Assembly (NCBI GenBank): GCA_018268675.1
Contig: JAFDWB010000095.1
Span: 1 to 64,000 of the forward strand
DNA: 64,000 nt
Direction of reading: 5' to 3'
Origin: Actinomycetota bacterium
Lineage (GTDB): Bacteria; Actinomycetota; Thermoleophilia; Solirubrobacterales; 70-9
In this document: in pieces, positions 50,165 to 53,100 of the stretch
Layout: every line of letters starts with the position of its first letter
Numbering within the stretch: position 1 is the stretch's first letter
Notes under the pieces: generated by a model
Database searches by the model: none
Told to the model about the DNA's origin: nothing
Seen by the model: the letters and a program-made list of their open reading frames with translations, nothing else
Translations under genes and position numbers: made by a program

Positions 50165-53100
50165 GTGACCGGCGCTCCGTACATCGAGCTGCATGCGCAC
50201 TCGGCGTTCTCGTTCCTCGACGGCGCCTCGACCCCGGCCGAGCTGGCGAACGCCGCGGAGGCGCTCGGCTATCCGGCGCTGGCGCTGACCGACCACGACG
50301 GCCTCTGGGGCTCGATGGAGTTCGCCCACTCCGCCAAGGGCCTCGGCCTCCGCCCGATCACCGGCGCCGAGCTGACCGTGCGTGTTGACGGGCCGAAAAC
50401 CGCTGATATAGAGCGGTTTTCGGCCCATCGACATCTGACGCTGCTGGTGGAGGACTCGGCGGGGTATCGGAATCTCTGCCGGCTGCTCACGGCGGCGCAC
50501 GCGCACACGCGGGACAACACGGCGCGCGCGGCGGAACCGGCGTGGACGACGCTGGAGGAGGTCGAGGGGCACGCGACGGGGCTTGTCTGCCTCTCGGGGT
50601 GCGCGCGGGACGGGGCGCTCGCGGCGGCCTTCGAGCGCGGCGACACGGCGAGCGGCGAGCGGCTCGGGCGCAGGCTCCTCGCCGCCTTCGGCCCGGACCG
50701 CTTCCGGGTCGAGCTGCAGCGGCCCTACTGGCGGCGCGACCGCGCCCGCAACCGCTGGCTGGCGCTCCTCGCCGCGCGGCTCGGCGTCCCCACCGTCGCC
50801 ACCGGCAACGTCCACGCGCACACCCGCTCGCGCTCCCACCTCCAGGACGCGCTGGTCGCGATCGGCCTTGGCGAGACCCTCGAGTCGAGCGAGCCGCGTC
50901 GGCGCGGCAACCCGATGTCGGCGCTCGCCTCGCCCGCCGCGATGGCCGCCCGCTTCGCCGAGCACCCGGACGCCGTCGCCGAGACCGTCCGGCTCGCCGA
51001 GCGCCTCGCCTTCGACCTCACCACCGGGCTCGGCTACCGCTACCCGCAGGAGGAGGACGGCGACGCCAAGCTCGCCGGGCTCTGCCGCGCCCGACTGGCG
51101 GAGAGCTACCCCGCCGGGGAGACCCGCCGCAAAGCCGAAGGCAGGCTCGAGCCGGAGCTGGCGACGATCCGCAAGCTCGGCCTCTCCGCCTTCTTCCTCC
51201 TCCACCACCGCCTCCTCGAGCTCGCCCGCGACGTCGCGCTCGAGGTGCGGGGACGGGAGGCGGCGCGCTCCCTCCTGCCGCCGGGCCGCGGCCGCGGCTC
51301 GAGCGTCAGCTCGATCGTCTGCTACCTCACCGGCCTCTCCCACATCGATCCGGTGGAGGCGAACCTCTTCTCCGGTCGCTTCCTCAACGAGGAAACCGTC
51401 TCCGACGACATCCGCTCGGTGCCCGACATCGATCTCGACTTCCCCCGCGACATCCGCGAGGTGCTGATCCCCCGCGTCCACGAGGTCTACGGCGCCGACC
51501 GCTCGGCCCTCGTCGCCGCCTTCCCGACCTACCGCCCGCGCGGCGTCATCCGCGATTTCGGCAAGGTGCTCGGCCTGCCGCCGAAAGAGATCGAGAAGGT
51601 CGCCGGGGTGGTCGGCTTCCACGAGTCGGTCGAGGAGATGGAACGCGACGTCGCCGCGGCCCTCGGCGGCAAGCGGGCCACCTCGCGGCGCTGGCAGGCG
51701 CTGTTGGAGGTGGGGAAGGAGGCGCTCGGACTGCCCCGCCACGCCTCCCAGCACTCCGGCGGCATGGTGATCGCCACCGCGCCCTTGACCGACTTCTGCC
51801 CGATCGTGCCGACCGCGATGGAGCGCCGCCAGATCGTCCAGTGGGACAAGGACTCCTGCGCCGACGCCGGGTTGCTGAAGATCGACCTGCTCGGCCTGGG
51901 GATGCTCTCCGCGGTCGAACGCTGCGTCGACGAGATCGAACTGGCGGAGGGAAAGAGGATCGACCTCTCGCGCATCCGGCTCGACGATCCCGCGACGTTC
52001 GCCTCGATCCAGAAGGCCGAGACGACCGGCGTCTTCCAGATCGAGAGCCGCGCGCAGATGCAGATGCTGCCGCGCACCCACCCGGAGACCATCGACGACC
52101 TCACCGTCCAGGTGGCGCTGGTCCGGCCCGGCCCGATCCAGGGCGGCGCCGTCCACCCCTACATCGAGCGCCGCAAGCGCCAGCGCGAAGACCCGGACTA
52201 CCGGCCGCCCTACGAGCACCCCTCCCTGGAGGGGCCGCTCGAGGACACGCTGGGGACGATCGTCTACCAGGAGCAGGTGCTGGAGGTGGCGATGGCGTTC
52301 GCCGGCTTCACCCCCGCCCAGGCGGAGAGCCTGCGCCGGGCGATGAGCCGCAAGCGCTCGACCGCGGCGATCGAGAGGCACCACCGCGACTTCGTCGACG
52401 GCGCTCGGCGGAAGTCGGATGCGGGCGCGGACCTGGCGGAGCAGATCTGGCAGAAGATCCAGGGCTTCGCCGGCTTCGGCTTCCCGAAGGCCCACTCGGC
52501 CGCCTTCGGCCTGCTCGCCTACCAGTCGGCCTGGCTGCGGGTCAACCACCCCGAGGCCTTCCTCTGCGGCCTGCTGAACGAGCAGCCGATGGGCTTCTAC
52601 CCGCCCGACGCCCTCGTCCACGAGGCGGCCCGCCGCAAGGTCCGCATCGAGGGAGTCGACGCCAACCGCAGCCACGTCCTCTGCCACCTCGAATCGCCCC
52701 TCCGCCGCGGCGAGCCGGGGGCGCCGGGCGGGCTCGTGGTGCGGATCGGCCTCGGCTACGTGAAAGGGGTGCGCGAGGAGGAGATGGAGGCGCTGGTGGC
52801 CGAGCGCGAGCGCGGCGGCCCCTATCGCGGCGTCGCCGATCTGGCCTCGCGCTCCGGGGCGGGGCTGCCGAGCCTCGAGAAGCTGGCCTGGGCGGGGGCG
52901 CTCGACGAAGTGCCCCTCGGCGCCGAGGAGGAACGGCGGCGGGCGCTCTGGCGGGTCGGCGTCACCGGCAACGGGAGCAGGAGCGGCGACGGGGCGACGC
53001 AGCTCTCCCTGCCGATCGAGCCGCCCGAGCCACCGCGCCTGGAGCGCCTCGGCGAGTGGGGCGAGGTGATCGCCGACTATCGCTCGACCGGGATGGTCCT

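Follow-up and report, generated by a model that had tools for sequence, protein, structure and literature searches.

Translated palindromes and related short repeats

Selfish palindromes that are translated as part of host proteins are known mainly from Rickettsia and Wolbachia, and to our knowledge their mobility remains unexplained. The Rickettsia palindromic elements (RPEs) are given as 105-146 bp long and inserted in frame in Rickettsia genes and, like the protein-coding palindromic repeats of Wolbachia, are depicted as dispersed, in frame within many unrelated conserved genes, and translated (PMC2229807, PMC10969869). Several RPE families occur within the genus, and the review names no mobiliser (PMC10969869, PMC2229807). 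Two other classes of short repeat also merit comparison. MITEs with in-frame ORFs, including ERIC, YPAL, and others, are described as small non-autonomous repeats capable of in-frame fusion (PMC2229807, PMC10969869), while some REPs of the GTAG and CGTC families reside within ORFs, including those of DNA replication and repair genes, and REP ends supply stop codons to flanking ORFs (PMC3733652). Nothing relevant on such elements in Solirubrobacterales was found in the open-licence literature.

The element described here, first noticed within a dnaE2 gene, is a palindrome residing in frame in unrelated protein genes (eleven sites in its own genome), as are the RPEs and the Wolbachia repeats. 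The original prediction had called it RPE-like, a reading borne out by dispersed in-frame palindromes with corresponding empty sites in relatives. Judging from the RPE descriptions, it works like the RPEs but is not one, being set apart by the length of its unit (49 bp, common to the coding copies, as opposed to the 105-146 bp given for RPEs) and by its host, a GC-rich Solirubrobacterales lineage rather than an intracellular alphaproteobacterium. A further difference is the apparent species-typical overwriting of its core at shared sites, of which the RPE descriptions consulted make no mention. The element resembles the MITEs in being small, non-autonomous, and capable of in-frame fusion, and its almost perfectly complementary 17-bp arms constitute terminal inverted repeats; unlike them, it is nearly all one hairpin. 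No parent insertion sequence or target-site duplication was found by a transposase search confined to the Y1 type and a comparison of sites that offered no near-identical empty and filled pair.

Related genomes with both shared and empty sites, several palindrome families, and species-typical cores make it feasible to resolve the order of insertion, inheritance, core replacement, and loss. They also offer a clean system for studying how a short hairpin copies its own sequence across a genome and how a tRNA synthetase, complex I, and other such central proteins accommodate inserted palindromes.

The palindrome within dnaE2

The gene dnaE2 (error-prone DNA polymerase III alpha) occupies positions 50165-53596 on the forward strand of the window, i.e., the whole 64-kb stretch of DNA analysed. 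It was assigned from an open reading frame with a GTG start (1143 amino acids) and Pfam matches to PHP, DNA_pol3_alpha, finger, and HHH_6; the ORF on its 5' side gave no Pfam match. The element (49 bp, 50384-50432) begins exactly at a codon boundary of dnaE2 and encodes residues 74-90 (VDGPKTADIERFSAHRH), in close agreement with the in-frame position at residues ~73-90 that had been predicted. It comprises a left arm GTTGACGGGCCGAAAAC (50384-50400, forward strand), a 15-nt core CGCTGATATAGAGCG designated type B (50401-50415, forward strand), and a right arm GTTTTCGGCCCATCGAC (50416-50432, forward strand). The 17-nt arms are conserved over 65 copies, and the core differs between species at the same dnaE2 site; the consensus ends of the element read GTTGAY/RTCAAC. 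For the palindrome as single-stranded DNA, the predicted folding energy was -22.6 kcal/mol, whereas shuffled sequences averaged -7.4 (z -7.65). A search of the entire 64-kb window against Rfam returned no match to any curated structured-RNA family.

Two intergenic copies in the window, at 367-415 and 7713-7761, were recognised by the pattern match together with a codon-usage score. The original prediction had likened the dnaE2 copy to both, with one mismatch per arm, and exactly one base in each 17-nt arm does differ. The likeness does not extend to the cores, which are of type A in both intergenic copies and differ from that of dnaE2 at 12-13 of 15 positions (7-8 if one is reversed).

AlphaFold modelled residues 1-290 of DnaE2 with a mean pLDDT of 90.5 and placed the insert between the beta strands 63-73 and 88-95; pLDDT falls below 50 at residues 78-85. 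The insert is thus modelled as a disordered, low-confidence loop of the PHP domain, consistent with the predicted insertion into a tolerant loop. Glu69, which does not vary among 45 homologues, lies five residues before it. The element is present in the DnaE2 of G000 (the genome of the window), G003, G006, and G007 and in one G011 copy, and is absent from that of G002, G004, G005, and G009 as well as from most of 80 wider homologues. Neither of the refuting conditions set with the original prediction holds, since DnaE2 homologues free of the element occur and G000 contains many further copies. At the same position, the G008 protein retains only GATGTTGATGGGC, possibly a remnant of the element. 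The closest named DnaE2 relatives are Solirubrobacterales metagenome-assembled genomes (MAGs).

The resemblance might in principle be fortuitous or reflect ordinary variation of the DnaE2 loop, since the same PHP loop spans 5 to 46 residues between motifs across the wider Thermoleophilia and varies in composition too, and part of the inserted length of PurQ, another carrier of the element, is also found in the PurQ of T. maritima. This is scarcely credible given that the central 37 bp of the element in dnaE2 recur unchanged at five other genomic positions and that ten other coding sites exist. A chance origin was rejected on copy number, as follows.

Copy number and distribution

Within G000 (4.2 Mb in 95 contigs), 63 copies matched the pattern at three mismatches or fewer, as compared to none for the reversed-pattern control, and 65 were collected from the stretches around copies once degenerate ones were included. 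The element is therefore dispersed genome-wide, as had been anticipated. The genomes compared are MAGs or other assemblies with short contigs, some of them incomplete; among them, copies numbered 49 in G003, 107 in G006, 41 in G007, 35 in G008, and 67 in G011, with none or one in each remaining species of the genus and one or two weak matches in genus g9 of the same family. Across 299 sampled genomes of the class, matches were confined to G000, G006, and one weak instance in g9. The carriers form a clade with 100/100 support in a concatenated-orthologue tree, in which G000 and G006 are sisters (96/93). Apart from the weak g9 matches, the element family is thus restricted to one clade of one genus.

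Coding copies and copies between genes

One gene reads through the element in frame at no fewer than 11 coding sites in G000, as judged by the codon-usage score on both sides, translation, and Pfam. The original prediction, which concerned the dnaE2 copy, was right in this respect and understated the scale: that genome has at least 10 further in-frame sites, and species-typical versions occupy shared sites in other species. The genes concerned are dnaE2, purQ, leuS (the site lying directly behind the match to the editing domain), nuoG, a pabB/trpE-type GATase/chorismate-binding fusion with two sites, a hyuA-type gene (hydantoinase A protein), a GH15-like gene, a GT87 gene, and two membrane-protein genes whose products gave no Pfam match. 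Gene names beyond the Pfam families follow a reading of the translations, and the gene calls are heuristic.

Seven of these sites are read in frame 0 (VDGPKT...FSAHQ), two in frame 1 (LMGRKP... and STGRKP...), and two in frame 2. The last of these would encounter a TGA within GTTGA, and both frame-2 copies are without it, carrying GTCGAC or CGCGAC instead. A predicted peptide translated through the element is exemplified by VDGPKTADIERFSAHQ, and one spanning the insert in PurQ or DnaE2 by VDGPKTGLSDGFSAHQR. Beyond the 49-bp unit, the flanks of different coding sites have almost no sequence in common.

Coding and intergenic copies were separated by a simple codon-usage score that was trained on the window and applied to the stretches around copies. 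By this measure, copies are strongly depleted in coding sequence relative to the ~77% coding share of the window, as would be expected if most coding insertions were harmful. Nine other G000 copies supply a neighbouring gene with its stop codon, two of them ending both convergent neighbours. The stop within these copies is either the TGA of the element or a TAG of the core (L054 at 2459, L057 at 2470, and seven more copies); in L054 and L057 the element's stop terminates both convergent genes.

Such gene-end copies, along with strongly conserved arms in which position 3 covaries (both arms changing together, Fisher p = 0.0002), might indicate functional sites under selection, i.e., bidirectional terminators, mRNA-stability hairpins, or protein-binding sites, with the coding copies as tolerated spill-over. 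We regard this as highly improbable: copies in the middle of core-enzyme genes need no terminator, sister species within the genus do not have the family, the cores differ among species, and the stem is not flanked by a T-tract.

About 30 intergenic copies, along with window positions 300-500, form mosaics with other palindromes (e.g., L090, L091, and L094), such as GGTGAGTTCGCA.../...TGCGAACTCACC and GGTTGGTGAGTTGACC/GGTCAACTCACCAACC.

Short hairpins, intergenic palindrome mosaics, stop-giving copies, and copies within ORFs are all reminiscent of the GTAG/CGTC REPs (PMC3733652), which raises the question of whether these are REP/BIME elements that a REP-associated tyrosine transposase (RAYT) moves in trans. 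The consensus, however, bears neither a GTAG nor a CGTC tag, and its stem exceeds the 5-13 bp given for those families. No match to PF01797 (Y1_Tnp, RAYT-type) was found in 12 genomes of the genus, some of them incomplete, whereas 5 of 14 control genomes were positive. Mobilisation by a RAYT is therefore unlikely, and very little weight is given to the REP/BIME reading as a whole.

Empty sites and probable inheritance of sites

Orthologues from eight genomes were aligned to compare empty and filled sites. Element-free orthologues were found, for instance, for PurQ (G003, G007, and G008), HyuA (G003, G006, G007, and G008), LeuS (G003 and G007), GT87 (G007), GH15 (G006), and NuoG (G003). As these empty sites belong to sister species, the coding copies are taken to be insertions. 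The net gain in length varies by site from about +4 to more than +20 amino acids, the empty sites being those of sister species rather than of near-identical pairs. Filled loops of LeuS and NuoG (L071, L088, and their orthologues) often lack part of the original loop, leaving a net growth of as little as four residues, as if loop length were under restoration.

At each of 11 sites out of 11, the reading frame is uniform across all carrier species (44 copies; 0 of 20,000 shuffles), which suggests that each coding site derives from a single old insertion inherited vertically. This reading is favoured by details of individual sites. Both flanks of the first PabB site align in five species, and the LeuS copies of G006 and G008 have in common an idiosyncratic right arm, AAATCGGCCCATCGACACG. 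The first PabB copy is degenerate in G000, G003, and G011, its arms having decayed in the latter two; chance resemblance was considered for this site and rejected in view of the nearly intact G006 copy, which identifies it as an ageing family member. Presence is nonetheless patchy in places, as the HyuA copy occurs only in G000 and G011 even though G006 is the sister of G000, and some insertions may therefore be independent between species.

Proposed turnover of the core

Core sequences of the coding copies were compared within and between species. Mean similarity was 0.751 within species. Between species it was 0.462 for copies at the same site, practically the value obtained for copies at different sites (0.457); the species effect was significant (p < 1/2000) and the site effect was not (p = 0.54). 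In G011, GCGCTGATATAGAGCGC is found almost everywhere, G006 carries CTCAAG...CTTGAG types, and G000 has three types. Because the core tracks the species, the encoded peptide variant (KSADIERFSA, KTQAG.EFSA, KTADIERFSA, or KTGLSDGFSA) serves as a species mark.

Given that the frame is the same at each site while the cores go with the species rather than with the site, we infer that the core has been overwritten genome-wide after insertion. Ectopic copying of cores between palindromes with common arms would be the simplest reading of these alignments.

A different account dispenses with overwriting: a still-active element would re-enter the same few tolerant loops, each species having its own subfamily. 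Cores that fit the species rather than the site are what it predicts, and it could also accommodate the patchy presence, the distance between conserved flank and element that varies between species at several sites, and the unrelated palindrome families in the same loop of the membrane protein MP_L093 in G002 and G005. Recurrent insertion would nevertheless have to reproduce the identical frame in every species at each of the 11 sites, also where that frame is the less common 1 or 2, and the flank or arm details common to several species at PabB_a, GT87, and LeuS; it would further require a strict target preference, which is hard to reconcile with coding-site flanks that share almost no sequence. 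We therefore consider it doubtful, albeit the most serious of the competing explanations.

The preferred reading, which we hold to be probably correct, is that of a non-autonomous selfish family of 49-bp palindromes whose coding copies are mostly old and vertically inherited and whose cores have been repeatedly overwritten. Within one clade of a Solirubrobacterales genus that is uncultured, copies would have spread through the genome, the survivors being mostly those between genes or at gene ends, with a minority persisting inside genes where they were in frame and in surface loops. The host would translate through such in-frame copies. Most coding insertions would predate the species and have been passed on vertically, and the ~15-nt core would since have been rewritten again and again from other copies of the same genome, leaving unrelated enzymes with one peptide variant. 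The favoured engine is either breakage provoked by the palindrome (hairpin cleavage) or template switching during replication that copies the core of another copy, for which the identical arms could act as annealing sites.

The broader proposition is one of concerted evolution, in which ectopic copying rewrites one peptide in DnaE2, LeuS, PurQ, NuoG, and PabB, and unrelated families can also seize the same loop; for this, the case stands about evenly balanced. If true, part of the sequence of these five proteins would be dictated by a DNA repeat family instead of by the descent of their own genes.

Other palindrome families in the genus

The loop of the membrane protein L093 holds unrelated palindromes, in frame, in sister species that lack the window family. 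In G002 it is occupied by the TTCCGTGGTTCCTTTGTCC/GGACAAAGGAACCACGGAA family, with 11 copies in the G002 stretches examined and at least three in frame in coding sequence, and in G005 by the GTGGTTGTCCTTTGTCA/TGACAAAGGACAACCAC family, which has ~20 copies and is represented twice in frame in this one gene. The occurrence of unrelated families in one loop indicates that in-frame palindromes are a general habit of the genus and not of one family.

The in-frame copies of the G002 family lie at L210 766-806, L339 1488-1528, and L340 1458-1498 and would encode the peptide RGSFVR..RTKEPRN; one of the three occupies the L093 loop in which the window family has a copy. Although its arms are unrelated to those of the window family, the G002 family has similar cores (e.g., GCCTATAGA and GGATATAGA, compared with CGCCTATATGTCA and GCTGATATAGAGC). 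The two in-frame copies of the third family, that of G005, lie at L208 947-989 and 1238-1280 in the membrane-protein gene, with an extra half unit after each copy. Lastly, in G008 L153 (~1921-1998), the loop that carries a palindrome in other species holds an in-frame tRNA-Val(CAC)-like sequence, the only such match in G008, of which the 3' half looks genuine and the 5' acceptor side seems unpaired.
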